Shown here: in pieces, positions 18,172 to 30,378 of the stretch
How positions within the stretch are numbered: position 1 is the stretch's first letter
Layout: each line of letters begins with the position of its first letter
NCBI GenBank assembly: GCA_016200005.1
Contig: JACQFP010000055.1
Coordinates: 1-37,024 of the forward strand
Length of the DNA: 37,024 nt
Direction: 5' to 3'
DNA from: Verrucomicrobiota bacterium
Lineage (GTDB): Bacteria; Verrucomicrobiota; Verrucomicrobiia; Limisphaerales; PALSA-1396
Notes under the pieces: generated by a model
Databases searched by the model: none
Told to the model about the DNA's origin: nothing
The model's input: the letters and a program-made list of their open reading frames with translations, nothing else
Program-made: the position numbers and the translations under genes

Positions 18172-19260
18172 TTACGGCTGACCCGGGGCCAGCACAACCC
18201 GGAAACCGTTGTAGTTGTCCCCGCTGCCCGGGGCATCGGCGCCCCGGTACGCGGAGCGGCAGAACCTGGCGCGGTTGTACCAGGCGCCGCCGCGAACCAC
18301 GCGGTTCACGCCCGCAGCAGGCCCTTGCGGGTCAGCGGCAGTCCCGGCGGGATACGCGCCACGCCAGTCCTGACACCACTCCCAAACGTTCCCAATCATG
18401 TCGTACAATCCCCAGCCGTTCGCTGCATAGCTCCCAACCGGCGTCGTTTGTTGGAGGTAAATGCCGCCGGGGATGTCAATAGTGCCCACAGACGCTTCGT
18501 ATTCGTATTGGCCATCCAAGTTCGCCTGGCCCGAGTACAAACCACTCCCCAGGTAAAACGCCGTCGTCGTCCCCGCTCGGGCAGCATACTCCCACTCCGA
18601 TTCCGTCGGCAATCGGTACGCATAGTTCGTGGGAATCAGACCCCCAGCCCGCTCTTGCTGCGTCCGCAGCGTGCAATAGTTAGTCGCATCAAGCCAACTC
18701 ACTGTCTCCACCGGACGAGTCAAATCATCGGAATATCCGTTGGCCGACGTGAAATAACTCGGATTCGTCGCCATGAGTGAAAGATAATCTCCTTGGGTCA
18801 CCAGATACTTCCCCATCCAAAACCCACGACTGATCGTCACCAGATGCTGAACCTCGTCCGAAACCCGCTCAGCCTCGTTCGTCGGGCTGCCCATTGTGAA
18901 CGTGCCCGGTTGGATGAACACCAGGTTGGTGTCGGCCGGTGCAGGAACGGATACGGCGCGATAAAACCGCTGCTCCGTCGAGGAGGCTGACGGATCAGAC
19001 CAAACATTGCTGCCACCCTGTGCTTGGAGCAGCGTCCGATCAGTCCAATGGCTCGTGGGGGAAAGGTTGGTGGCGTATTGAATCGAGTAAACGGTCCCCA
19101 AGGTTCCTGTGAGGCTCAGGGTTGGCTGGCCCGAGGAAAATCGCAGCCCAAGACTGGGCTGGGGTTGAGCAGTGGCTCGTGGCGCTATCGCCCAAGCGGT
19201 CAGGAACAACACGGAGATTACTTGGCCAACCAGAATGCTTCGTCTTTTCATATTCATCAT
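18172..19260 (-). CDS. Exported FGE/SUMF1-like protein, probably not a true formylglycine enzyme
   Basis: The product has 362 residues. It has a signal peptide (MKRRSILVGQVISVLFLTAWAIAPRA, cleaved near ATAQ). A short beta domain (YSIQYATNLSPTSHW ... RFYRAVSVP) precedes the FGE-sulfatase fold from about residue 115: FIQPGTFTMGSP, RPVETVSWLDATNYC, YRLPTESEWEYAARAG, GLYDMIGNVWEWCQDW and RVVRGGAWYN. Formylglycine-generating enzymes use a Cys pair in the segment after GG-x-x-x; here the first position is Asn (GGAWYN) and only the second Cys is present (RFC), so the copper site is incomplete. It may bind ligands, like other FGE-fold proteins. It lies 63 bases downstream of an S8 protease gene and is probably cotranscribed. 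Confidence 0.85.
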   Translation of the reverse strand: MMNMKRRSILVGQVISVLFLTAWAIAPRATAQPQPSLGLRFSSGQPTLSLTGTLGTVYSIQYATNLSPTSHWTDRTLLQAQGGSNVWSDPSASSTEQRFYRAVSVPAPADTNLVFIQPGTFTMGSPTNEAERVSDEVQHLVTISRGFWMGKYLVTQGDYLSLMATNPSYFTSANGYSDDLTRPVETVSWLDATNYCTLRTQQERAGGLIPTNYAYRLPTESEWEYAARAGTTTAFYLGSGLYSGQANLDGQYEYEASVGTIDIPGGIYLQQTTPVGSYAANGWGLYDMIGNVWEWCQDWRGAYPAGTAADPQGPAAGVNRVVRGGAWYNRARFCRSAYRGADAPGSGDNYNGFRVVLAPGQP

Positions 19261-19323
19261 GTATGCGGTCCCGGGTCTGCCGCGCTGTGACTTGAATGTC
19301 TTTATGGAACTCCCGAATCCATT

Positions 19324-20763
19324 TCACTTGGTGGTCACGGAGATTGTTGTCGCAATTCCAAGATTCAAAGCCGCGTCAAGGGCGCGCGCAGAGATTTTGT
19401 AATTCACTCCCGGTTTGCTGTCGGTCTTGAAACTGAAAGCATAGGGCGCGCTGGAGTCCGTGGCCGTCAATACACCATTGAGATAGAAGTCCACTTTGGT
19501 GACGCCAACATTGTCCGAGGCCGTCGCAGTGACCGTCAGCGTGGTGCGCTTCGGCACCGTTGCTCCATTGGCTGGGCTGGAGATAACAACGGCCGGCGCA
19601 GTGATGTCACCTGCTGGCGGGAGTCCTACTTCGTCGAAGGCATAAAGCAGGTGATTGTTTTCCGTGCCCGCCAGTTTCACGACGTTCTTGGTCGTGAATG
19701 CGTATAGCGCGTCTCGCACTCCGCGCGCGTCTGCCGACGGAGTTCCTTCCAAGTAAAGCGCCGCTCTCCCGGAACTGAACGCGGTCGCCGCGGAGGTGCC
19801 GGATTGCACCACGTAGCTGAAATCATTGCTGTGCGAGGCAGCAGGAATGTTGATTCCTGGCGCAAACCAATCGATGCACGAGCCGTAGGTGGAATACTCC
19901 CTCGTGTCGCTGGCATTGCTGCCTGCTGTCGCCATGACCCCATCGACCGTCGTAAAAAGCCAGAGACACGAATCATCGTCGCCGTTGCCGGCGGCGACGG
20001 CAGTAGCGACTCCTGAGTTGACCATCGCTTGGACGGCCGTCAGAACCGAGGTGGCGGCCACGGTCAACGACATATTCGCAACAGCGGGCGAGACGTGATG
20101 CGCTGTCACCCAATCCACGCCAGCGAGAATCGAACTGGCCGTCCCGGTCCCGCTGCAATCGAACACGCGAACTGACACGAGATTCACCTGCTTCGCGACT
20201 CCGTAATTCAGCCCACCGATGATCCCCGCGACCCACGTTCCGTGTCCGATGCAATCCGATCCGTCCCCGCCAAACGCATCGAAGCCGAAGCTTGCGCGCT
20301 CGGAAACCTCCTGATGAGAATAGCGTATTCCTGTGTCAATGACATAGACGGTGACTCCCGCTCCGAGCCGATCATAAGAATAAAGGCCATCCAACGGCAG
20401 GTTTCGCTGGTTGATTCGGTCCAATCCCCAAGCGGTTGTCGTTTGCTGAACGGTTGCCTCGGCGGTGGGCAAAGCCTGCACGATCTCATCGGGCTCCACC
20501 ACTGAGACTCGCGGGTCGCGTTGCAGCCTTTCGACCTGCGCGTCTGACAAGTTGCCTGCAAAGCCTCTGAGCGCGTGCTGGAAAAGACGCTTGGGCTTGA
20601 TCCCGAGTTCGGCGGCGACGGTTCCAGCATCGACGTTCGGCTTCAGCGTCACGATGAATTGGCCGGGGATGATTCTCGGCGCGTCGGGTTCAGCGTCGGC
20701 AATAAAGGCGGCGGCAACGAGCGCAGTCGCGAGGAGGGTGATGAAGGCGTATCTTGGTGTCAT
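19324..20763 (-). CDS. Secreted subtilisin-family (S8, proteinase K-like) protease with Ig-like tail
   Basis: A 479-residue exported protease. Signal peptide 1-24; an I9-type inhibitor propeptide about 30-96 (PGQFIVTLKPNVDAG ... VSVVEPDEIV); an S8 catalytic domain 105-385 with D143 (VIDTGIRYSH), H174 (GHGTWVAG), oxyanion N260 (AAGNGDD) and S324 (SGTSAATAF); and a C-terminal bacterial Ig domain (ITAPAVVISSPANGATV ... to the end). All catalytic residues are present. The upstream DNA carries the CGTGAAAGA-N11-CGTGCGATT motif and a CCAAAACCATTT leader, both shared with the other S8 gene. It is followed by the FGE-like gene. Control by the ECF sigma factor at 29684-30343 is inferred from that motif. 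Confidence 0.92.
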   Translation of the reverse strand: MTPRYAFITLLATALVAAAFIADAEPDAPRIIPGQFIVTLKPNVDAGTVAAELGIKPKRLFQHALRGFAGNLSDAQVERLQRDPRVSVVEPDEIVQALPTAEATVQQTTTAWGLDRINQRNLPLDGLYSYDRLGAGVTVYVIDTGIRYSHQEVSERASFGFDAFGGDGSDCIGHGTWVAGIIGGLNYGVAKQVNLVSVRVFDCSGTGTASSILAGVDWVTAHHVSPAVANMSLTVAATSVLTAVQAMVNSGVATAVAAGNGDDDSCLWLFTTVDGVMATAGSNASDTREYSTYGSCIDWFAPGINIPAASHSNDFSYVVQSGTSAATAFSSGRAALYLEGTPSADARGVRDALYAFTTKNVVKLAGTENNHLLYAFDEVGLPPAGDITAPAVVISSPANGATVPKRTTLTVTATASDNVGVTKVDFYLNGVLTATDSSAPYAFSFKTDSKPGVNYKISARALDAALNLGIATTISVTTK

Positions 20764-20769
20764 AAAACG

Positions 20770-20781
20770 AAATGGTTTTGG
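20770..20781 (-). promoter_or_regulatory. Shared leader element CCAAAACCATTT
   Basis: CCAAAACCATTT lies exactly six bases before the ATG of this S8 gene. The same 12 bases at the same distance precede the other S8 gene (25642-25653), although the sequences on both sides differ. It may be a translation-start or regulatory element. It is not a Shine-Dalgarno sequence. Confidence 0.4.
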
Positions 20782-20833
20782 TTTTCTTGTTCGATCTTAA
20801 GTTCAAAAGTGCGTTATTCGGGCACGGAGATGT

Positions 20834-20862
20834 AATCGCACGCGGCGCGAAAATCTTTCACG
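20834..20862 (-). promoter_or_regulatory. Bipartite ECF-type promoter candidate, S8 operon 1
   Basis: On the minus strand, CGTGAAAGA (20862-20854), an 11-base spacer and CGTGCGATT (20842-20834) lie 70 bases before the start codon. The surrounding 71 bases (20817-20887) match the DNA before the second S8 gene at all but one position. The same two boxes with the same spacer precede the ECF sigma gene, where the flanking sequence is different. Confidence 0.65.
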
Positions 20863-20876
20863 GAAAATGGGGGGAC

Positions 20877-20930
20877 GTAACGCCGACTTTCCAGGCGGCG
20901 GGAACAGGCCGGTTGGAAAATCGGCGGTAC
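20877..20930. repeat. Palindromic GTAACGCCG repeat, copy B
   Basis: GTAACGCCGACTTTCC at the left is matched by the inverted GGTTGGAAAATCGGCGGTAC at the right. It lies between the FG-GAP gene end and the promoter candidate of the S8 gene. Confidence 0.6.
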
Positions 20931-20949
20931 GATTCAGCCAGCGCGTTTC

Positions 20950-23562
20950 TTACGGCTGGGCGGTGCGGTAGAAGGCGGCGCCGGGCAGCGGAGCGGTTTC
21001 GTGATATTCGATGAGGCCGGAGGCAGGCGTGGTGTTCGTGGCAATGGCAGACCAGGGGCCGGTCACGCTGGGAGCGCGCTGCAAACGGTAGGTGATATCC
21101 GGTGCGCCGGTGAACCGGAGAAAGTAACCGCTGCTGCCATCGGGCACGAGTGCGAGCCGGGGGCCGATGCCCACGCCGGTCAAGACGTAGGCCGCACCTG
21201 CGTATGAGGCGCTATTGTTACTCTGGTCGCCGTTCACGCCGGTGGCGTTGCTGTCTTCCCAAATCGCTCCGACCACCACCGTGCCGCCCGACACTGCCAC
21301 CGAATTGCCGAACCGGTCACCGGCCCACCCATCCGTTGCCCCGCCGGTGTTGGAGGCTTTGAGATACGCTTGCTCACTCCATGTCGTCCCGCTACGCACG
21401 AAGACGTAGGCCGCTCCGGAGTTTGTGGCGCTGTTGTCGCCCTGGTTTCCGTTCACACCGGTGGCGTTGCTGTCCTCGTGATACGCTCCGACCACCACCG
21501 TGTCGCCCGATATTGCCACCTGGTCGCCGAACAAGTCATCCGCCCCGGTGTTAGCAGCTTTGAGGTAGGCCTGCTGGGTCCAGGTTGTCCCGTTGCGCAC
21601 GAAGACGTAAGCTGCGCCGGAGCTTGCGGCGCTGTTGTTGCTCTGGTTACCGTTCACACCGGTGGCGTTGCTGGACTCGACCGGAGCCCCGACCACCACC
21701 GTGTCGCCTGACAGTGCCACCGACTGGCCGAAATAGTCACCCGCGTCGGTGTTGGAGGCTTTGAGATAGGCCTGCTGGGTCCAAGTTGTCCCGTTGCGCA
21801 CGAAAACGTAAGCTGCGCCGGAGCTAGCGGCGCTGTTGTCGCTCTGGTTTCCGTTCACCCCGGTGGCGGCGCTAGCCTCGCCAGCCGCGCTGACCACCAC
21901 CGTGTCGCCGGACACCGCTACCGAACCGCCGAAATGATCACCCCCGTCCGTGTTGGAGGCTTTGAGATAAGCTTGCTGGGTCCAGTTTGTTCCACTGCGC
22001 ACGAAAACGTAAGCTGCGCCGGCGCCTGAGGCGCTGTTGTCGCTCTGGTTGCCGTTCACCCCGGTCGCATTGCTCTTCTCCCAACTCGCCCCGACCACCA
22101 CCGTGTCGCCCGACATCGCTACTGAGTTGCCAAACCCATCGTACTGCCCCGTGTTGGAGGCCTTGAGATAAGCCTGTTGGCTCCAATTGGTCCCGCTGCG
22201 TACGAAGACGTAGGCCGCGCCGGAGTACGGGGCGCTGTTGTCGCTCTGGTTGCCGTTCACCCCGGTGGCGTTGCTGTCCTCTTGATACGCTCCAACCACC
22301 ACTGTGTCACCCGACACCGCCACTGAGTTGCCAAACCCGTCATCTGCGTCGGTGTTGGAGGCTTTGAGGTAGGCCTGCTGAGTCCAAGTTGTCCCATTGC
22401 GCACGAAGACGTAAGCCGCGCCGGACTTTGGGGCGCTGTTGTCGCTACCATCGCCGTCCACTCCGGTGGCGCTGCTGTCCTCATAAACCGCTCCGATCAC
22501 CACCGTGTCGCCCGACACCGCCACCGAACTGCCGAATTCGTCACCGTATCCGTATTGGGCATCGTATCCCGTGTTGGAGGCTTTGAGATAGGCTTGCTGG
22601 GCGATGGGGTCAATGGTCAGCGGGTAGCGCGCGCCGCGTTCGTCAATCACGAGGCGGAGCGCCGATTCGTCGGAGCGCGACTGTATCCAACGGACCAGTC
22701 GCAGCGGGTCGGCATCGTCGAGCGTGTAGCGGCTGGTGCTGCGCACACAGCCGCGCTCCTCTTCCACCGGTTCAAACCGCGCCGGAAGTTTCCGCCCGTC
22801 GGCGTCGAGCACGGTCAAGTCCGAGTAGGTCAGGGCCGCCGCGCCTTGAGCATCCACGAAGCGCACGCTGCGTCCATCCGCCTGCACTTTCGGGCGCAGT
22901 CCGCCACGCACCGACAGGAGAAAGTTGAGAGTTGAGGGTTGAGGGTTGAGCGAAGGCGCACTTCGGAGGGACGAGCTCTGCGAGTCCCCATCTTCCGAGG
23001 TTCGGGCCTCGCGTAACTCGGCCCTCCGATCGGTGGGCCGCTCGCGGACGGTGAAGCCGTGTTCCAAGCCGTACCGGTCGTTCACGAACCATTCCTGCAA
23101 CGTCGCATCCCAATCGTACGTCACGCGCTGGCCGACGGAGTTCACGCGGGGTTTGCCGCTGACGGTGCGCTCGCTGCCGGCGAAACCGTAGCTCTGGAGT
23201 TCCAATCCCCATTGCCAGGCGGCGTCATTGGGCTTCGTAGTGAAGCCGCGGCCATCGAAGCGCGTCTGCCATTGCTGGCCGGGATTGCGCGCCTGATATC
23301 CGCCGTCCACGGGGACGGCGGCGTGGCGATGCTGCTCAAATTGCTGGCGGATGCTGAACCACTCCGGCGCGCTGAGGCCCTCGGGCACGGTGTCGGGGGA
23401 AGCGAGAGTTTGCGGGCGGCCCGATTGGGAGGGGGCGGCCCGGACTGTTGGCGAGAGGAGCGTCGCGAGCATCAGCGCAGCGGCGGTCTGTCGGAAGAGA
23501 TTCGACACCTGCTTGCTCCTGGAGTCTTTGATTTGCCCGAGGTTATTCATCGTGGTTGGCAT
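20950..23562 (-). CDS. Secreted seven-unit FG-GAP beta-propeller protein
   Basis: The product has 870 residues. Signal peptide about 20-42; an N-terminal beta domain (65-320, with FDGRGFTTKPNDAAWQWGLELQSYGF); then seven tandem FG-GAP units of about 67 residues (322-800), each with QQAYLKASNT, FGNSVAVSGDTVVVGA, ATGVNGNQSDNSA and GAAYVFVR. Seven units would close one integrin-alpha-like propeller. The end (YRLQRAPSVTGPW ... FYRTAQP) is a beta domain common in exported verrucomicrobial proteins. Residues about 179-213 come from an inserted palindromic repeat. FG-GAP propellers usually bind proteins or glycans, often with calcium. It lies 66 bases downstream of the second S8 protease gene and is probably cotranscribed. 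Confidence 0.88.
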   Translation of the reverse strand: MPTTMNNLGQIKDSRSKQVSNLFRQTAAALMLATLLSPTVRAAPSQSGRPQTLASPDTVPEGLSAPEWFSIRQQFEQHRHAAVPVDGGYQARNPGQQWQTRFDGRGFTTKPNDAAWQWGLELQSYGFAGSERTVSGKPRVNSVGQRVTYDWDATLQEWFVNDRYGLEHGFTVRERPTDRRAELREARTSEDGDSQSSSLRSAPSLNPQPSTLNFLLSVRGGLRPKVQADGRSVRFVDAQGAAALTYSDLTVLDADGRKLPARFEPVEEERGCVRSTSRYTLDDADPLRLVRWIQSRSDESALRLVIDERGARYPLTIDPIAQQAYLKASNTGYDAQYGYGDEFGSSVAVSGDTVVIGAVYEDSSATGVDGDGSDNSAPKSGAAYVFVRNGTTWTQQAYLKASNTDADDGFGNSVAVSGDTVVVGAYQEDSNATGVNGNQSDNSAPYSGAAYVFVRSGTNWSQQAYLKASNTGQYDGFGNSVAMSGDTVVVGASWEKSNATGVNGNQSDNSASGAGAAYVFVRSGTNWTQQAYLKASNTDGGDHFGGSVAVSGDTVVVSAAGEASAATGVNGNQSDNSAASSGAAYVFVRNGTTWTQQAYLKASNTDAGDYFGQSVALSGDTVVVGAPVESSNATGVNGNQSNNSAASSGAAYVFVRNGTTWTQQAYLKAANTGADDLFGDQVAISGDTVVVGAYHEDSNATGVNGNQGDNSATNSGAAYVFVRSGTTWSEQAYLKASNTGGATDGWAGDRFGNSVAVSGGTVVVGAIWEDSNATGVNGDQSNNSASYAGAAYVLTGVGIGPRLALVPDGSSGYFLRFTGAPDITYRLQRAPSVTGPWSAIATNTTPASGLIEYHETAPLPGAAFYRTAQP
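21170..22599 (-). repeat. Seven tandem ~201-bp FG-GAP coding repeats
   Basis: The seven propeller units are strikingly alike in DNA as well as protein, with stretches such as the codons for ATGVNGNQSDNSA and SGDTVVVGA nearly unchanged between units. This suggests recent amplification or gene conversion. The fourth and seventh units show the most change. Confidence 0.8.
22922..23035. repeat. Palindromic repeat plus heptamer run inserted in frame in the FG-GAP gene
   Basis: The arms at 22964-22988 and 23004-23028 match in inverted form at 20 of 25 positions (CGGAGGG ... CGAG ... GCGAG ... CCC). Next to them, 22924-22950 is a run of four GTTGAGG-like heptamers. In the protein this gives RRAELREARTSEDGDSQS and SLNPQPSTLN, low-complexity residues that interrupt the N-terminal domain without breaking the frame. 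Confidence 0.6.
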
Positions 23563-23628
23563 AGTTGTCGCGCCAGCGGCAGCCCAAGCGCCTTCACGGC
23601 AGGGCCGGCCGCCGCCCGACTGCTTTCG

Positions 23629-25635
23629 TCATTTCGTTGTGACGCTGGCTTGGTTTGAGTAAGCCGAACTGCCCGCAACGTTGAAGGCCCGGACGCGATA
23701 GCTGTAGCTGGTCCGCCGCGCTGCGGAGGCATCCGTGAACGTCTTCGTGTTGGCCGCCACGGTGGTGAGCAGTTGCCACGTGGTGCTGGTCTTGCGCTCG
23801 ATCTGGAAACTGTCTTCATTGTTGGAGTTGTCTTTCCAGGCAAGACGGACTCCGTATCCAGCGCTCAAAGCCGTGGCCGTGAGGCTGGACGGCGCGTTTG
23901 GCAGAGATACAGCCGGTGTGGTCACCGATGGAGCATCAGCGTAACCAGAGCTGCCGCCGGGGTTGTAAGCGCGCACGCGATAGAAGTAGGTGTTCCCGGG
24001 TTGCACGGTGCGGTCGGAATAGTTCACGTCGCCGGCGCCGACGGTGTCGGCCAGATAAAAGGTCACGCCATCGGTCGAGCGCTCGAGGGCAAAACCGAGT
24101 TCGTTGTTGGATTGATCGGCCCAGCTCAAGTCCACGCGAGTGCCGGAAGCCGGTGTCGCCTGCAAGTTCGCCGGCGCCGCGGGTGCGGGAAGTCCGTTGG
24201 CTGGCACCGCCATGAGCGTGCCGACGTCGAGCGATCCGCCCGTTACGGTGATGCCTTCGAGCGAGGCGAGCGGGCGGACCCCGGCGGTCAGGAGATCATT
24301 TCGGGTTTGCACCGGCGTCGAACCGGGATGGGTCGAGGCGTAAAGCGCGACCGCGCCGGTCACGTGCGGTGTCGCCATGGAGGTGCCGTTCAGGGAGCCA
24401 TAGCTGTTGGTCAGAACGGTCGAAAAGACCTCCCCGCCGGGCGCCCCCAGGTCCACGTTGGTCGCGCCGTAATTGGAGCTGGTCCGCTTGTTGCCGTCTC
24501 TATTGATCCCTGCTACCGAGATTACCGCGTCGTATCCGGCGGACGCCGTCGTGTTGAGAGCCGCCGGGTAAACAGGCGACACATCAATGTTGTTGGTGCT
24601 ATTCGCGGCGGCGGCGACCGAGAGAATGCCCGCCTGCGCGGCACGCGTGAAGGCATCGAGCAAGGCCTGGCTGAAGGCAGTACCGGCCCAGGAATGATTC
24701 AGCGCCACGATGTTCAGCCCTTTCCGGGTTTTGAGTGTGGTCATGTAATCAATGGCTTGAATGGCGTCGGAGTAATATCCTGTTCCTGCCTTTAAGAACT
24801 TGCCGGAGATCATGGTCACATTCCAGTTCACGCCGGCCACTCCAATGCCGTTTCCGCCGACGGCGCCAATCGTTCCAGCCACGTGGGTGCCGTGAATATC
24901 GGCAGTGTCGTCAACGAACGACACGTTCCCATTGTCATCGGCCGCATTCCAGCCATGCACATCGTCCACATAACCATCGCCGTCATCGTCAATGCCGTTC
25001 CCGGGGATCTCACCCGGATTGGTCCAGATATTCGCCGCAAGGTCCGGATGGTCAGTTTGGATTCCTTGGTCGATGATGCCCACGAAGACGTCCGGCGAGC
25101 CGACGAACCCGACCGCCCAGGCTTTTTCGGCCTGCGTGCCGAACGGGTTGTAGGTGGGTGCCGGTCCGATGGACAACGGAGAATCATCGCTGAACATCCC
25201 CCACAAGGAGCCATCAAGATAAAGCGGATCGTTCGATTCGAACTCTTGAGTCGCCACCCAGTCCGGCTCGGCAAACTCCACCCCGGGCAACCGGTTCAGC
25301 AGGCGGACCGCTTCCGGCACCGACAAGACCGTCGCTGTGCGCGTGATGCCAATCCGGCCATGAGCTTTCATGGCCGGGGTTTGAATGTGCTTGATCAGAC
25401 CCAACCGGCCTTGCTGGAAGGCGCCCGCCAGTTGTTGATCGGTGACATCGGCCTTGAACTGGACCAGGACTTCGCCGGCCCGATAGCGTGGGCCGCCGGG
25501 CGAGATTTCCACCGGGGGAAGCGCCTGGCCCTGGCAGAGCGTGGCTACGAAGAGGTTGATGGATGCCAGCCAGACCCCGGCACGGGGTGCGGCGGCGGTG
25601 AGCGCGGTCTTGGTGAGCGAGTTTCTTTGCTTCAT
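23629..25635 (-). CDS. Secreted subtilisin-family (S8) protease with two fibronectin III domains
   Basis: The product has 668 residues with a signal peptide ending near residue 37 and an inhibitor-type prodomain about 48-125 (GEVLVQFKADVTDQQLAG ... GVEFAEPDW). The S8 catalytic domain at 160-470 has D189 (GIIDQGIQTDHPDL), H248 (DIHGTHVAG), N345 (AAAANS) and S419 (NGTSMATPH). A calcium-type loop (GNGIDDDGDGYVDD) sits after the first catalytic Asp. Two FN3 domains follow (about 482-572 and 577-668, each with LxW-D-SNNE). All catalytic residues are present. It heads an operon with the FG-GAP gene and shares its promoter motif with the other S8 gene and the ECF sigma gene. FN3 domains suggest polymer or surface binding. 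Confidence 0.93.
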   Translation of the reverse strand: MKQRNSLTKTALTAAAPRAGVWLASINLFVATLCQGQALPPVEISPGGPRYRAGEVLVQFKADVTDQQLAGAFQQGRLGLIKHIQTPAMKAHGRIGITRTATVLSVPEAVRLLNRLPGVEFAEPDWVATQEFESNDPLYLDGSLWGMFSDDSPLSIGPAPTYNPFGTQAEKAWAVGFVGSPDVFVGIIDQGIQTDHPDLAANIWTNPGEIPGNGIDDDGDGYVDDVHGWNAADDNGNVSFVDDTADIHGTHVAGTIGAVGGNGIGVAGVNWNVTMISGKFLKAGTGYYSDAIQAIDYMTTLKTRKGLNIVALNHSWAGTAFSQALLDAFTRAAQAGILSVAAAANSTNNIDVSPVYPAALNTTASAGYDAVISVAGINRDGNKRTSSNYGATNVDLGAPGGEVFSTVLTNSYGSLNGTSMATPHVTGAVALYASTHPGSTPVQTRNDLLTAGVRPLASLEGITVTGGSLDVGTLMAVPANGLPAPAAPANLQATPASGTRVDLSWADQSNNELGFALERSTDGVTFYLADTVGAGDVNYSDRTVQPGNTYFYRVRAYNPGGSSGYADAPSVTTPAVSLPNAPSSLTATALSAGYGVRLAWKDNSNNEDSFQIERKTSTTWQLLTTVAANTKTFTDASAARRTSYSYRVRAFNVAGSSAYSNQASVTTK

Positions 25636-25641
25636 AGATTC

Positions 25642-25653
25642 AAATGGTTTTGG
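25642..25653 (-). promoter_or_regulatory. Shared leader element CCAAAACCATTT
   Basis: Same 12 bases and same six-base distance to the ATG as at 20770-20781 before the other S8 gene. The neighbouring bases are not conserved. Confidence 0.4.
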
Positions 25654-25703
25654 CTGAGTTCAATTATTGATTTCATTGGTGCTGGTTTCGGGCACGGAGA
25701 TGT

Positions 25704-25732
25704 AATCGCACGCGGCGCGAAAATCTTTCACG
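25704..25732 (-). promoter_or_regulatory. Bipartite ECF-type promoter candidate, S8 operon 2
   Basis: CGTGAAAGA (25732-25724), 11 bases, CGTGCGATT (25712-25704) on the minus strand, 68 bases before the ATG at 25635. It lies in the 71-base block (25687-25757) that is almost identical to the one upstream of the other S8 gene. Confidence 0.65.
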
Positions 25733-25746
25733 GAAAATGGGGGGGC

Positions 25747-25811
25747 GTAACGCCGACATTCGTGTCGGCGCGGTTCAAGGTTGGACTCGCCGGTTGGAAA
25801 ACCGGCGTTAC
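25747..25811. repeat. Palindromic GTAACGCCG repeat, copy C, supplying the kinase stop codon
   Basis: The element runs from GTAACGCCGACATTCG to CCGGTTGGAAAACCGGCGTTAC. The kinase stop codon TAA (25810-25808 on the minus strand) is inside the terminal GTAAC, so the kinase now ends where the repeat begins. Confidence 0.6.
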
Positions 25812-28800
25812 TCGAACAACTGCGGCGCGCGGGCGCGGAGGGAGCGGCAGAGTTCGGCCAGTTCGTCGGGTTTCAGCGGGAGCAACACGCCGCTGGCGTT
25901 GAGCCGACGACCTGACGTCAACTTCGCGTAGTCGGCAAGCACGTCCGGGGCAAGACGCGATTCCTTGAGATCCCAGGCCCGGAGCTTGTTCGGCAGGCTG
26001 AGCGTGATGAGCCGGTTGTTCGCCACGAGATGCGCAAGGCGAACGTCACCGTTGTGCTTCAGCAGCGGCGTCACGGCTTCCCCGGTGGTGGAGTCCCAGA
26101 CACGCACGACATTTTCACCGCTGCGCGCCACGATGAACCGACCGTCCAAGCTCCACATCACCGTTCCAAGTGGCTTATCCCCGATGCGCAGCGGCGGCAG
26201 CGAGAGTTCGCCCGTGGACGCTTCCCATACCCTGACTTCCGGCGTGACTCCGGCCATGGCAATACGTTTGCCATCCGGACTCCAATCCACCCAGGTCAAG
26301 GCGCCGTCATGCCTGACGGGCGGACTTAGTGGCGCTCCCGTTTTTGTGCTCCAAACCCGTCCCCACTGTTCCGCGGTCACCGTGGCGAAACGCTCGCCGG
26401 CAGGATCGAATGCGAACGCGGTAACGGTGCCCGGTCCAATGGGCGTGGGAGTGATACTGCCGGTCACCAGGTCAAAAAGCGCAAAGCCAATGTCGCGGTG
26501 AACAATGAAGATGGTCCTTCCATCCGGGAACAAATCACCACTTTCGTCAATCGTCTCGGGTGCCGTCACTGAATGCTCCAATGCGCCGTCGTCAGTCCGC
26601 CAGGATCGAATCTGTCGGTCGCCACTAACGGTAATCAAACTCGCGCTGCCGGTAGCAAAACGCATATTCCGGATTTTCTGCGGATGCAAATGCCATGGGA
26701 ATCTGCCCGCGCCATTCTCGTCGTACCACATTTCCACGATCGCGCTACGGGGAGCAAAACCAGTATTCTGGATTTCCTTCGCATGCGGGAGCATCTGACG
26801 TCGGAGCTTCCCTCCCTCGTCGCGCCAAAGCTCCACGACAGACGATTCCAGTTTATTAGTCGGGGCGTAAGCTATCGCCCACTGGTGGTTGTCGGCTGAG
26901 AAAGTCCATTGATGCGGCGCGCAGTTGGTAGGTTTGGTGCCGGGCAGGTTCACTTCCGCCAGGCGCTCCACGTCCACCAACCGCACCGTTTCGTCGTCCA
27001 AGGGGATTAGGAACCGCCGCCGATCAGGGCTGAAGCCCTTCAGGAGTCTTTGCGGAGAACCTCTGCGAATGCCGGGAATGTTGGCATTGAAGCGATGGAC
27101 GGCGTCCTCCCGGCGGAGGTTCAACTTCCACAGCACGCACGCGCCTTCGTCGGTGATGGTCGCCAACTGCGATCCGTCCGGGCTGAGTGCGATATCCAGA
27201 ATCTGCCGGCCATGCCGGAATGGAGGCGCAAGCATCTCACCCGTCTCGAGACTCCAGAGGCCATCGATTCTGTCCCGGCCGCCGAACATGACGCGGCGGC
27301 TGTCCTGAGTTGCGGCCCAGGTGCCGTGCGGCTTGTCGAGCCGTATCGCCGGCAAAAGCTCGGCTTGGGTATCCAAGTCAAACACCCGCATTTGCCCGCC
27401 GAACGAGGAGAACAGACGCCGGCTCGGCACCTGATCAATCCAAAATGCTCCGCTGGCGCCTGACGCTTCGATCGGTTTGCCGACACTGGTTAAGGTCTCA
27501 GTGCTCCAAATGCGGATAAAATCGTTGGTCACGCCATCACGGACGATTTCCTCTCGGATGGCGAGCCGCTGTCCATCCGGGCTGAGGGCAGGAAAGTGCT
27601 GCTCCAGTTGAAACGGAAGCGGAGCACCAACTGGTTCACCAGAAGGCAGACGCCACAACCGGATTGTCCCATCCTCGCTGGTCGAAGCCAGCAAGTTGCC
27701 GTCGGTGCTGGTGGAGAACGCAAGAATGTTGTTGGTATGGCCTTTCAGGGCCGCGACCTGACTTCCGTCACGAACATCAAGCACCCGGATGACGTAATCC
27801 GATTCAGCCGTCACCAACCAACGACCATCTCCAATGAGCGCTGCGAGGGCGAGATTGGTGGCGACTTTTGTGAAAAGCCGTTGCCCCGTGGCTACATCAA
27901 TGACCGCCGCACTGGTGGTGCGAATTCGTTCGGAAGGACTGACGCCTCCACCGTACAAAGTGTCCACGCACAAGCGCCGACCATCGGACGTGAAACTCAT
28001 CTGAGGGATTCCATCGCTCTCCAGACGCAAAGGCTTCCAAAGTGGCTCACCCGTTTGGACATCCCACAGGTGGACCCAACCCCATTCTGTGCCAATGGCC
28101 AATCGCTTTCCATCCGGGCTGAACGCCATGGATCTGACGGGATGCTCGTGAACCAGGACTTGTGCCGGGCGCGGCATCTGATTCAGCGTTTGCTGGATGC
28201 GGATGCGGTGGATGGTTTCCTCGGCGGAATTATTTGTGACCAGCGGCAGCGCATCGGCAAACCAGAGTAGCGCGCCCGCAGGATCGCCATCGTCGAGCAG
28301 GCGCACGCCGTTGGCCACGTCCAGCCGGACGATGCGCTGACGGTTTTCCTCGGCCAATCGCGCGTTCTCGGCCGCGAGGCGGCGGGCTTCACGAGTTTGT
28401 TTTTGCTGCCAAAGCCAAGCACTCGCTGCGAGCACGGCCAGGGCGGTCACAAGGGCGCCGGCCCGCGCCAGCGTGCGCACGCGGCGTTCGACGGTCCGCA
28501 TCCGGCTGACCGATTTGCCGCTCTGGAGCAAGGCGAGATCGGCGTGGAGTTCGGCGGCGGTTTGGTAACGTTGCTTGAGATCGGCGTGGCAGGCGCGGAC
28601 GATTATTTCGTTCAACTCCGCGAGTTGGGCGCGCTCGGCGGCGGGTTGCGCGATGAGGTTCGTCGGCAGTTCGGGATATTCCTGGCGGTCGCGGCCGGTG
28701 GCCATTTCGTAGAGCACTTTTCCAAGACTGAAGATGTCGGCCTGAGCGGTGCCCGGTCCTTCGGGCGGCAGATAACCTTCCGTGCCCACGAGCGACAGCG

Positions 28801-29479
28801 TGGCCTCGGCCTGCGCCACGAGGCCGATGTCGGCGAGCTTTGGAATGCCGTTCACGAAGACAATGTTTGACGGCTTGATGTCACGGTGAACGAGTCCGTG
28901 GCGATGCAAGTGGTCGAGCGCAGTGGCAGGGGCGAGGCCGATTTGCAGGCATTCGTCGAACGGAAGGCAGCCGCGTTGCAGGAGATCGGAACGCAAGGTG
29001 CGGGGGGAGTAGGAACTGGAGTATTGGAGTGTTGGAGTAGTGGAATCTTGAGCCGACGCTCGTTGCCCATCACTCCGACACTCCATTACCCCATCACTCC
29101 GTTCCGCCGCGTCTGCCAGTTCCATGACGTAGTAGAAATGGCCGGCGGCATCGTTACGACCAACGTGCAGCACGTTGAGCTGGCTGGGGTGCGTTCGGGA
29201 AATCGGCTCGAAGCGGCGAATGCCTTCGAACTCGCGTTCGTATGGACGGTCGTGATCAAACGCGGCGCGGTGGACAATCTTCACCGCCCGCCAGGTGCCG
29301 AGGGCGTTGCGAGCGAGCCACACCTCCCCGTAACTGCCGCGTCCAATCCTCCGGATCAGTTCATGGTCAGGAATGACCGGCGGCGCGAGAGGCGTGTCGG
29401 CAATCGCCTCCGACGCCGGCGACATTGTGCTGCCGAGGTCGTTCAGCATTTTGTCGCGTGCGTTGGGGTCGGCGTTCAT
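25808..29479 (-). CDS. Transmembrane Ser/Thr protein kinase with WD40 repeats
   Basis: About 1223 residues from the ATG at 29479 (the frame opens at a TTG at 29500). In numbering from 29500: glycine loop GRGSYGEVW (53-61), Lys74 in AVKIV, HRDIKPSN with Asp207, DIG at 224-226 where most kinases have DFG, and GTEGYLPPEGPG. One membrane helix (about 345-364) and a short charged coil (366-390) lead to a long WD40 region (about 430-1200: FSPDGKRLAIGTEWGWVHLWD and many more). The kinase would face the cytoplasm and the WD40 part probably the periplasm. About 33 residues after YYVMELADAAE come from an inserted repeat. It is third in the sigma factor operon, so it is a likely controller of that sigma factor. 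Confidence 0.9.
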   Translation of the reverse strand: MNADPNARDKMLNDLGSTMSPASEAIADTPLAPPVIPDHELIRRIGRGSYGEVWLARNALGTWRAVKIVHRAAFDHDRPYEREFEGIRRFEPISRTHPSQLNVLHVGRNDAAGHFYYVMELADAAERSDGVMECRSDGQRASAQDSTTPTLQYSSSYSPRTLRSDLLQRGCLPFDECLQIGLAPATALDHLHRHGLVHRDIKPSNIVFVNGIPKLADIGLVAQAEATLSLVGTEGYLPPEGPGTAQADIFSLGKVLYEMATGRDRQEYPELPTNLIAQPAAERAQLAELNEIIVRACHADLKQRYQTAAELHADLALLQSGKSVSRMRTVERRVRTLARAGALVTALAVLAASAWLWQQKQTREARRLAAENARLAEENRQRIVRLDVANGVRLLDDGDPAGALLWFADALPLVTNNSAEETIHRIRIQQTLNQMPRPAQVLVHEHPVRSMAFSPDGKRLAIGTEWGWVHLWDVQTGEPLWKPLRLESDGIPQMSFTSDGRRLCVDTLYGGGVSPSERIRTTSAAVIDVATGQRLFTKVATNLALAALIGDGRWLVTAESDYVIRVLDVRDGSQVAALKGHTNNILAFSTSTDGNLLASTSEDGTIRLWRLPSGEPVGAPLPFQLEQHFPALSPDGQRLAIREEIVRDGVTNDFIRIWSTETLTSVGKPIEASGASGAFWIDQVPSRRLFSSFGGQMRVFDLDTQAELLPAIRLDKPHGTWAATQDSRRVMFGGRDRIDGLWSLETGEMLAPPFRHGRQILDIALSPDGSQLATITDEGACVLWKLNLRREDAVHRFNANIPGIRRGSPQRLLKGFSPDRRRFLIPLDDETVRLVDVERLAEVNLPGTKPTNCAPHQWTFSADNHQWAIAYAPTNKLESSVVELWRDEGGKLRRQMLPHAKEIQNTGFAPRSAIVEMWYDENGAGRFPWHLHPQKIRNMRFATGSASLITVSGDRQIRSWRTDDGALEHSVTAPETIDESGDLFPDGRTIFIVHRDIGFALFDLVTGSITPTPIGPGTVTAFAFDPAGERFATVTAEQWGRVWSTKTGAPLSPPVRHDGALTWVDWSPDGKRIAMAGVTPEVRVWEASTGELSLPPLRIGDKPLGTVMWSLDGRFIVARSGENVVRVWDSTTGEAVTPLLKHNGDVRLAHLVANNRLITLSLPNKLRAWDLKESRLAPDVLADYAKLTSGRRLNASGVLLPLKPDELAELCRSLRARAPQLFE
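29006..29101. repeat. Palindromic GGAGT repeat inserted in frame in the kinase domain
   Basis: GGAGTATTGGAGTGTTGGAG on one side (about 29019-29038) is matched in inverted form by ACACTCCATTACCCCATCACTCC on the other (about 29078-29100). The insert encodes roughly residues 134-165 of the kinase (RSDGVMECRSDGQRASAQ and onward), a low-complexity loop placed after the hinge. The frame is kept on both sides. Confidence 0.6.
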
Positions 29480-29496
29480 CGGTCGAGGAGAGTATC

Positions 29497-29676
29497 TCAA
29501 CTATGCCGGCGGGCGGGCAGCGTGGCAAACGCGGCATCGCGCTTCAACTCGCGCATCGCCTCGCGGACCAGCGCACGGCGGAAGGCGTAAGCATTGCGGC
29601 GCGGGGTAATCCGGTAACGGCGGATCGGCTGGCGCGGCCGGAGCCAGGTGAGGAAGTAATGGAAACGGGCGGTCAT
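29497..29676 (-). CDS. Small basic protein (59 aa) between the sigma factor and kinase genes
   Basis: ATG at 29676 and TGA at 29497-29499 give 59 residues (start MTARFHYFLTWLRPRQPIRR, end FATLPARRHS). The ORF fills the gap between the sigma factor stop (29684, seven bases before) and the kinase ATG (29479, 17 bases after), so the three genes would be translationally close. It is very rich in Arg (about one residue in four) with a few aromatics and no predicted membrane helix. I do not recognise the family. The placement suggests a role with the sigma factor or kinase. No strong ribosome binding site is visible, and a chance ORF in GC-rich DNA is not excluded. Confidence 0.55.
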   Translation of the reverse strand: MTARFHYFLTWLRPRQPIRRYRITPRRNAYAFRRALVREAMRELKRDAAFATLPARRHS

Positions 29677-29683
29677 GATGCTT

Positions 29684-30343
29684 TCACGCTTCCGCCTCCA
29701 TAAGTTTCCGCAGTTTCTCGGTTTCCTGCTTGATCAGCGCGGTAACGCGGTGTTTGGCGAGGTAAACTTGGGCGATGTTGGCATGGAGCGTTTTCGCGAC
29801 TTCGCCGACGGGCCATTCCTTCAGCACGTAGAGATCGAACATTTGAAACTGTTTGGCGCCGACGCGCTGTTTCACCCGTTCAATCGCGGCGTCGGCGAGG
29901 TTTTTCGCCCATTCTTCGTCCCACACTTCGTCCACGACGCTGGCTTCAGGCGCGGGAATTTTTTCCACGAGAGGCGTAAGTTCGGTGTCCTCGCCGTCGG
30001 AAGCAGGCTCGGCGAAAGGCAGGCGACGACGACGCAGGTGATCGGCGACGCGCCGTTGCACGATCAACTTGAGCCACGCCTTGAACGAACTGCCTTCCGC
30101 CGCCTTGAAGCGTCCCTCGCGCAAGCCCTTGGCCACGGCCACCACGGTTTCCTGCACCATGTCCCGCGCGTCATCGTCCGAGAGGCCGGCCTTGAGGGCG
30201 ACGCTGTAAAGGAATTTCCAGTAGGTGTCGAAGAAATCGCGCCAGCTTTCCTGATCGTCCCAGCGCTTGAGACGGCTCAGGAGGCTCAGCCGCGTGGGGA
30301 TGAATTCATCCCCGGCGGAATTGCTGTGGGCAGATTGCACCAC
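29684..30343 (-). CDS. ECF-type RNA polymerase sigma factor
   Basis: A 219-residue sigma-70 family protein lacking region 1 and most of region 3. Region 2 spans about 30-105 (FFDTYWKFLYSVALKAGLSDDDARDMVQETVVAVAK ... WLKLIVQRRVADHLRRRR). Region 4 is about 150-210 (FQMFDLYVLKEWPVGEVAKTLHANIAQVYLAKHRVTALI). The start shown is a GTG at 30343, followed by a second GTG. The protein resembles verrucomicrobial ECF factors paired with Ser/Thr kinases, and the kinase gene is indeed in the same operon. No anti-sigma factor gene is adjacent. A bipartite motif shared with two S8 protease operons lies directly upstream, suggesting that it drives its own gene and theirs. Confidence 0.92.
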   Translation of the reverse strand: MVQSAHSNSAGDEFIPTRLSLLSRLKRWDDQESWRDFFDTYWKFLYSVALKAGLSDDDARDMVQETVVAVAKGLREGRFKAAEGSSFKAWLKLIVQRRVADHLRRRRLPFAEPASDGEDTELTPLVEKIPAPEASVVDEVWDEEWAKNLADAAIERVKQRVGAKQFQMFDLYVLKEWPVGEVAKTLHANIAQVYLAKHRVTALIKQETEKLRKLMEAEA

Positions 30344-30349
30344 GGATAG

Positions 30350-30378
30350 AATCGCACGAAGGCGTGATTTCTTTCACG
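30350..30378 (-). promoter_or_regulatory. Bipartite ECF-type promoter candidate at the sigma factor gene
   Basis: CGTGAAAGA (30378-30370), an 11-base spacer and CGTGCGATT (30358-30350) on the minus strand, six bases before the GTG start. Spacer and flanks differ from the two S8 copies while the boxes are the same, which argues for function. If the second box is a -10 element, the transcript would be leaderless or translation would begin further inside. Confidence 0.6.

Follow-up and report, generated by a model that had tools for sequence, protein, structure and literature searches.

A putative sense-and-secrete module built around a kinase-linked, autoregulated ECF sigma factor in a Verrucomicrobiota bacterium

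A 37,024-nucleotide stretch of DNA from a Verrucomicrobiota bacterium (contig JACQFP010000055.1 of assembly GCA_016200005.1; the whole stretch is called the window here) carries seven genes on the minus strand, in the order extracytoplasmic function (ECF) sigma factor, small open reading frame (ORF), Ser/Thr kinase with WD40 repeats, S8 subtilase, FG-GAP propeller, second S8 subtilase and a protein of the formylglycine-generating enzyme (FGE) fold, as an earlier note on this DNA had described. Short sites with a common pattern precede the sigma gene (P1) and each subtilase gene (P2 and P3; Table 1). Genes and sites are best explained, with a probability that we place at roughly three in four, as a self-contained sense-and-secrete module in which a kinase-linked, autoregulated ECF sigma factor serves a local regulon and both sensor and output are exchangeable. 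A signal would reach the WD40 sensor in the periplasm and activate the Hanks-type kinase, which would activate the sigma factor, whose gene lies two places upstream, probably by phosphorylation and perhaps with the help of a basic protein of 59 residues specified by the small ORF. The sigma factor would bind these sites and transcribe its own operon, a positive feedback, together with the adjacent operons for secreted proteins, through a -35 element common to the family (TGAAAGA) and a -10 element peculiar to the sigma clade (here CGATT) that would keep parallel modules in one genome apart. The relay core of sigma factor, kinase domain and promoter would stay, while sensor and cargo are swapped from genome to genome and from one paralogous module to another.

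The three minus-strand matches to CGTGAAAGA-N11-CGTGCGATT that the earlier note had reported are all exact, and when the window was dinucleotide-shuffled 100 times, three matches never arose even at up to three mismatches (mean 0.07). In the 6.54 Mb draft genome to whose 87 contigs the window belongs (G000), they are the only matches at up to two mismatches, with none for the controls; at up to three, four more appear, each at three mismatches, against three for a reversed-pattern control. The scattered hits named beforehand as counter-evidence were thus absent, and a scan with a looser pattern found no remote targets of the window sigma factor in this genome. The worry that the two subtilase copies reflect a duplication was partly justified, since P2 and P3 agree at 70 of 71 bases inside a 104-nt repeat at 87%; P1 differs from them in spacer and flanks and keeps the boxes and the 11-base spacing, as had been claimed. 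The wording of the second box has to be revised: its leading letters vary among orthologs and it is better read as TGCGATTA; the core is TGAAAGA-N13-TGCGATTAYATC, that is TGAAA-N17-CGA, the layout of an ECF promoter. A GTG (mostly CCGTGC) is kept 8 nt after CGATT in the cargo sites, where no gene starts, and at P1 (window 30339-30350) it coincides with the GTG start of the sigma gene; it is a conserved predicted transcription start region. P1 ends only 6 nt ahead of the first of two sigma GTG codons, at 30343 and 30340, which makes a leaderless or nearly leaderless sigma mRNA probable.

Comparison with related genomes bears out the conservation of these sites and their restriction to the locus. 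A search with the sigma protein at E ≤ 1e-62 found matches in 29 of 320 genomes of the order, its own included, and close orthologs in seven other genomes, six of them 77-90% identical (G105, G083, G106, G268, G112 and G004) and one 61% identical (G088). The boxes stand upstream of the sigma gene in all seven, at the same 11-base spacing and with 0-4 mismatches, and a second site lies 4.7-6.5 kb downstream, past the kinase gene, in all six orthologs whose contig reaches that far (that of G083 ends first). Conservation ahead of orthologous sigma genes, on which the first proposal had staked itself, is therefore found, and a bipartite promoter with ECF spacing supports autoregulation at the level of sequence. 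Such autoregulated promoters are common among ECF (group 4) sigma factors, not obligatory. An extended pattern, applied to the 320 genomes at up to three mismatches, gave 17 matches in 11 genomes and none when reversed; 13 of the 17 coincide with sigma or cargo sites in the clusters of G000 and six other genomes, and the remaining four lie in G113 (where the match is the cargo site at a related sigma locus), in G055 (where a divergent site stands on the 5' side of a sigma homolog), in G245 and in G247. Because that pattern was drawn from these same clusters, its informative part is the absence of matches elsewhere. The pattern as first written, at up to two mismatches, has 16 matches spread over 15 of 57 other genomes, compared with two for controls, and one of the 16 (G004:C92:24908) is a real cargo site.

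The two halves of the site behave differently across the wider family, for which 36 sigma-homolog loci were compared (L077 was omitted from counts and alignment as a duplicate of L118). TGAAAGA is the commonest 7-mer upstream of these genes and occurs within 170 bp, on the coding strand, at 22 loci (5/8 in the ortholog group of the window, 17/28 outside it) compared with 115 of 6198 background windows, the loci being related and so not independent of one another. The -10 element varies (CGATT, CGAAT, CGATC, CGAAC, xGTTT and others). On a tree of 40 sigma factors, 18 of which have no -10 label, the CGATT group (eight sigmas, counting G004 and G088, whose own promoters read CGATA, and G268, whose own promoter reads CGATG) forms one clade with support of 100/100, as does the CGATC type (two sigmas; 100/100), and the five CGAAT sigmas share a single 99/97 branch with one CGCTT sigma. 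The -10 type thus follows the sigma clade for three types. Loop L3 of sigma2, which in ECF sigma factors reads the flipped-out -10 base (PMC8103513; publications are cited by accession and for the accessible part of each), is FKAAEGSSF in five of the eight CGATT-group sigmas; in all eight it exceeds the YDRTKSSF type, which belongs to the CGAAT group, by one residue.

Within a locus, the sigma promoter and the second promoter tend to carry the same -10 element. Over 16 two-promoter systems the -10 cores differ by 6 letters, compared with 24.0 expected when partners are shuffled, and none of 100,000 shuffles was as low; with orthologs collapsed to one (ten systems) the figures are 3 letters against 17.9 (18/100,000). 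Omission of G144, G260 and G018 leaves 13 systems in which the second site precedes a non-kinase gene, and here 5 letters stand against 15.2 expected (4/100,000), falling to 2 against 10.0 when collapsed to seven systems (492/100,000) and to 1 against 7.8 when collapsed to five (1714/100,000). The match is thus real but rests on few independent cases. A natural experiment in G113 points the same way. In that genome an S8 gene 77 kb away from a CGAAT sigma gene encodes a protein identical to the cargo subtilase of G112 at 543 of 656 residues, and its promoter, homologous to that of G112, reads TGCGAATA where G112 has TGCGATTA; its -10 is the CGAAT of the G113 sigma promoter, not CGATT as in G112. 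No CGATT-group sigma was found in G113 at E ≤ 1e-62.

A kinase gene follows the sigma gene at 28 of the 36 loci, although in six of these (G112c, G260, G253, G068, G144 and G143) it starts more than 1 kb past the sigma start with other DNA between. Of the eight loci without one, three end within about 1 kb of the sigma gene, four are paralogs in G000 (contigs C53, C6, C36 and C2) and one is G308. HRD[ILV]K and DIG or DLG motifs occur in every one of the 22 kinases that exceed 600 residues, and 21 of these have a transmembrane-like segment directly after the kinase domain, by hydropathy only, which in 19 of the 21 is the sole one above threshold. The protein is therefore predicted to consist of a cytosolic kinase, one transmembrane segment and a WD40 part that should be periplasmic. 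This outer part has diverged far more than the rest: the window module is 61-89% identical to six orthologs in the sigma factor and 76-91% in the kinase domain compared with 27-43% in the sensor, and mean pairwise identity along the kinase falls from 0.85 (residues 301-330) to 0.25 (451-480), with an extra low stretch at 121-150, within the kinase domain. A variable, repeat-like in-frame stretch, SDGVMECRSDGQRASAQDSTTPTLQYSSS, lies in the kinase domain at about window 29010-29110. Sensor and core were compared in 23 pairs; G112b and G113 are 82% identical in the sigma factor, 94% in the kinase domain and 27% in the sensor, while G112 and its own paralog G112b are 59%, 69% and 54% identical, respectively. 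Comparison thus indicates that the history of the sensor is not tied to that of the sigma/kinase core. In both G106 systems (L081, G106:C365; L109, G106:C13) the kinase frame is split into two ORFs, which may be broken or carry sequence errors.

Between sigma factor and kinase, the 59-residue basic protein (WLRP..P.RRYRVTPR.N..AFRR.LL) is present in the window, G105, G106, G268, G112 and G004; it was not found in G088 at the same threshold, and looser ORFs of this kind were seen by eye at other loci. Ten pairwise comparisons of five sequences gave 90, 60 and 165 differences at the three codon positions, with 97 synonymous and 127 nonsynonymous codon differences, which suggests modest constraint at the protein level. 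An AlphaFold2 model has two helices at low confidence (mean predicted local distance difference test score 66.5), too weak for a fold search. The window sigma factor has a Ser/Thr kinase beside it and no known anti-sigma gene. The earlier statement that no anti-sigma gene is adjacent thus holds for known families, but the conserved small ORF could still encode an anti-sigma factor or an adaptor.

The cargo genes differ from one ortholog to the next. G000 has a subtilase with the FGE-like protein and a subtilase with the FG-GAP protein, G105 a BNR and an LVIVD propeller, G106 and G268 a BNR-like protein and a PQQ/SBBP propeller (the first protein of G106 lying below Pfam cut-offs), G112 a subtilase, G004 an SBBP propeller and an FGE-like protein (the latter by phmmer), and G088 an SBBP propeller and a protein with no family assignment. 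Once the true start is taken, the N-termini look by eye like signal peptides, except in the third gene of G268. The cargo is therefore not specifically the secreted protease and adhesion module of the earlier description, as behind the same promoter orthologs can carry BNR, SBBP, LVIVD or PQQ propellers or an FGE-like protein. Subtilase S8b of the window is identical at 448 of 645 residues to an S8 protein encoded on contig C20 of G000, in a paralogous cluster, although the sigma factors are only 49% identical: cargo has moved or been converted between modules. The FGE-fold cargo protein has a C-terminal Cys334 and an Asn at the partner position of the catalytic cysteine pair of true FGE; with one of the two cysteines, it is probably not a formylglycine generator. 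Diversity of both cargo and sensor would fit a variable biotic or substrate target, a matter of speculation. A role as a defence system was considered and set aside, as the PADLOC matches were confined to profiles of kinases (33 families for the kinase) and to a single profile for a subtilase, with none for the other four proteins; descriptions of conflict systems (PMC8195603, PMC7159879), in their accessible parts, do not contain this composition.

The sigma protein itself has the size and domain content of an ECF (group 4) factor, with TIGR02937 above its cut-off, Pfam giving no separate region-4 match. It has a DAED-like motif (DARD), the loop FKAAEGSSF and a threonine, Thr123, in the linker between sigma2 and sigma4. 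An acidic motif of the DARD/EAQD type is present in all 36 aligned sigma factors (ESQD in one), which rules out membership of ECF43, and threonines are conserved at Thr17 (36/36), Thr66 (35/36) and the linker Thr123 (34/36). Assignment to the Type III-E CRISPR sigma factors was likewise rejected, the NCBIfam match reaching 38 of 100 bits, far below cut-off. Weak sigma homologs, 21-29% identical, also occur in G000 (regions L039-L042). One of its kinase-less sigma paralogs (L034, G000:C53) has TTGAAAGA-N15-CGTAT about 0.2 kb ahead of a gene for a hybrid histidine kinase/response regulator. The same genome holds 163 copies of a palindromic repeat, GGAGTTCAAGCTTCAGCTTGTC, at up to three mismatches (0 in controls), many of the listed copies forming close facing pairs; two stand in frame in the sigma2–sigma4 linker of two paralogs (G000:C6:55827 and C2:65668; L036 and L038), like protein-inserting palindromic elements.

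In a phylum-wide sample, a sigma homolog was found at E ≤ 1e-40 in 48 of 387 genomes, the module's own included. Thirteen loci fetched from outside the order had a kinase with WD40 repeats in one case, a kinase cut by the contig end in one and no kinase in four, and TGAAAGA upstream, judged by eye, in one. At the remaining seven (L144, L145, L147, L149, L151, L152 and L153) the kinase beside the sigma gene is fused to an FGE-like domain, a fold that in the window is cargo. The sigma–kinase pairing thus seems wider than the form with TGAAAGA, WD40 and cargo. In the ortholog group the sigma tree disagrees with taxonomy, as G083 and G004, of the same genus, are split by supported branches and G106 pairs with G268, of another family; this suggests horizontal transfer of modules, although old duplication with loss may also account for it. 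An idea to which we would give even odds goes further: these modules would be plug-in cassettes that spread horizontally, each with a constant relay of ECF sigma factor, 59-residue basic protein and kinase domain, a swappable periplasmic WD40 sensor, swappable secreted effectors and its own -10 "address" changing jointly in sigma and cargo promoters, so that several could work in one cell without cross-talk and a stray cargo gene could be re-addressed by a single-base change, as with the G113 subtilase. The joint diversification of sensor and output would then suggest that fast-changing biotic partners or substrates are recognized and responded to.

Several observations weigh against the module as we draw it. 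Fourteen of the 36 related loci have no exact TGAAAGA upstream, and six loci have an opposite-strand copy; some of these copies are divergent sites adjoining a sigma promoter. The correspondence of -10 type with sigma clade breaks down for CGAAC, which needs two changes on the tree, and for xGTTT, which is unsupported. The list of 16 two-promoter systems was assembled by eye, and those of G105 and of contig C20 in G000 were found knowing the -10; the G105 site is itself weaker, with a degenerate -35 (ATGAAAGG), and the second site precedes the kinase gene in G144, falls between sigma and kinase genes in G260 and has no ORF after it in G018. Six sigma–kinase loci whose contig runs past the kinase (G014, G319, G039, G127, G264 and G070) gave no matching same-strand second site in a scan that is leaky and overlooked the window's own P2; pairing of the two sites is thus common without being universal. 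The four kinase-less paralogs in G000 keep the linker threonine, and conservation of Thr123 is therefore no proof of its phosphorylation. The switch of ECF43, in which phosphate replaces missing acidic residues, is not simply transferable to a sigma factor that keeps the DAED-like motif.

The last two points lend themselves to a different account, possible if unlikely, in which the sites are promoters of the window sigma factor and the kinase does not act on it: control would lie with the small basic protein as anti-sigma factor or adaptor, or only with transcription, and the kinase would have other substrates. The DAED-like motif could allow RNA polymerase to be bound without phosphate, and a small ORF under modest protein-level constraint occupies the same place in five orthologs. 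Against this, the kinase gene accompanies the sigma gene at most loci, three of the eight exceptions ending within about 1 kb, and outside the order it does so in 9 of 13, mostly with an FGE-fold sensor instead of WD40; moreover, the conserved linker threonine lies in the region where EcfK of Xanthomonas citri is phosphorylated (PMC13147305). EcfK is activated by its kinase PknS through Thr51 or the linker Thr106 (PMC13147305), and EcfP of Vibrio parahaemolyticus by PknT (PMC8999054). On synteny and precedent, we infer that the sense-and-secrete module has its sigma factor controlled by the kinase. That the motif is an operator for another regulator, whether repressor or activator, is improbable: in its favor, the predicted start region is also kept in the cargo sites, but the spacing is that of ECF promoters, sigma clade and loop L3 go with changes in the -10 half and a constant -35, and no other shared regulator was seen among the homologs of the window's own genes, which alone were sought in the clusters. 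Very improbable indeed is a by-product of recent duplication or of a dispersed repeat with no regulatory meaning; for all the near-identity of the subtilase copies over 71 bp and the wealth of dispersed repeats in G000, boxes and spacing, but not the spacer, are kept both in the sigma copy and in those of seven other genomes, and G000 has no further copy at up to two mismatches.

The features of the window are collected in Table 1. The likely true start of the kinase ORF is the ATG at 29479. Part of the FG-GAP gene (window 21182-22651) is built of 201-bp repeats that are 63-86% alike, which suggests repeat expansion.

Table 1. Genes and putative promoters of the module, with positions in the window.
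Feature	Position	Strand	Remarks
P1, putative sigma gene promoter	30350..30378	-	-35 TGAAAGA, -10 CGATT; kept in 7/7 orthologs
ECF sigma factor, 219 residues	29684..30343	-	PF04542; TIGR02937 E=8e-16, residues 33-206
Small basic protein, 59 residues	29497..29676	-	kept between sigma and kinase; motif RRYRVTPRxNxxAFRRxLL
Ser/Thr kinase with WD40	25808..29500	-	kinase domain ~48-330, HRDIK at 205, transmembrane segment 343-363, WD40 ~385-1230
P2, putative cargo promoter	25704..25732	-	75 nt past kinase stop, 68 nt ahead of S8 start
Subtilase S8b with fn3 domains	23629..25635	-	signal-peptide-like N-terminus
FG-GAP_2 repeat (propeller) protein	20950..23562	-	signal-peptide-like N-terminus
P3, putative cargo promoter	20834..20862	-	near-copy of P2
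Subtilase S8a with I9 propeptide and Big_7 domain	19324..20763	-	signal-peptide-like N-terminus
FGE-sulfatase-fold protein	18172..19260	-	signal-peptide-like N-terminus; cysteines at 196, 296, 334

Through this module a large, apparently uncharacterized family of sigma–kinase pairs acquires a concrete putative regulon and promoter code. The sequences suggest that parallel ECF systems are naturally insulated from one another by the -10 element, and that signaling is designed around a fixed relay whose input and output can be swapped. If it is true that the kinase acts on a sigma factor that keeps its DAED-like motif, phosphorylation would control sigma factors in one more way. A literature search that covered few subscription papers found no description of a module that has local matching cargo promoters and a small basic protein and whose sensor and cargo are exchanged; parts may stand in the 2021 ECF classification.

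ECF sigma factors whose genes adjoin those of Ser/Thr kinases are already known, and six such groups have been predicted (PMC8999054). ECF43, represented by EcfP–PknT and EcfK–PknS, resembles the present system in having a sigma factor beside a transmembrane Hanks-type kinase with no known anti-sigma factor, and in a linker threonine between sigma2 and sigma4 (T106 of EcfK; PMC13147305), a likeness of region and not an established residue homology. ECF43 has no DAED motif in region 2.2, according to the accessible part of PMC8999054, whereas the sigma factor described here keeps a DAED-like one, and the present module differs further in its cargo promoter beside the locus, its 59-residue basic third protein and its exchange of sensor and cargo. 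ECF59, ECF61, ECF62, ECF217 and ECF283 share the sigma–kinase neighborhood, predicted by synteny, and are compared here by description only. In the account of PMC8999054, ECF43 alone has not retained DAED or a motif like it, from which PMC8103513 differs in stating that ECF59 has lost DAED; the representatives of these five groups in the former are from Planctomycetes and Nocardioides, whereas the present module comes from Verrucomicrobia. The periplasmic WD40, TPR and FGE-domain Ser/Thr kinases of Planctomycetota have the same plan of cytosolic kinase, one transmembrane segment and an outer WD40 array, but are described, in the part of PMC11032199 that is accessible, as expanded kinases and not as modules of sigma factor, promoter and cargo. 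Finally, the association of -10 type with the L3 loop of sigma2 agrees with the specificity code described for ECF sigma factors (PMC8103513); unlike orthogonal ECF pairs, the systems compared here would be kinase-linked paralogs that share a genome, have local second promoters and have diverged naturally.

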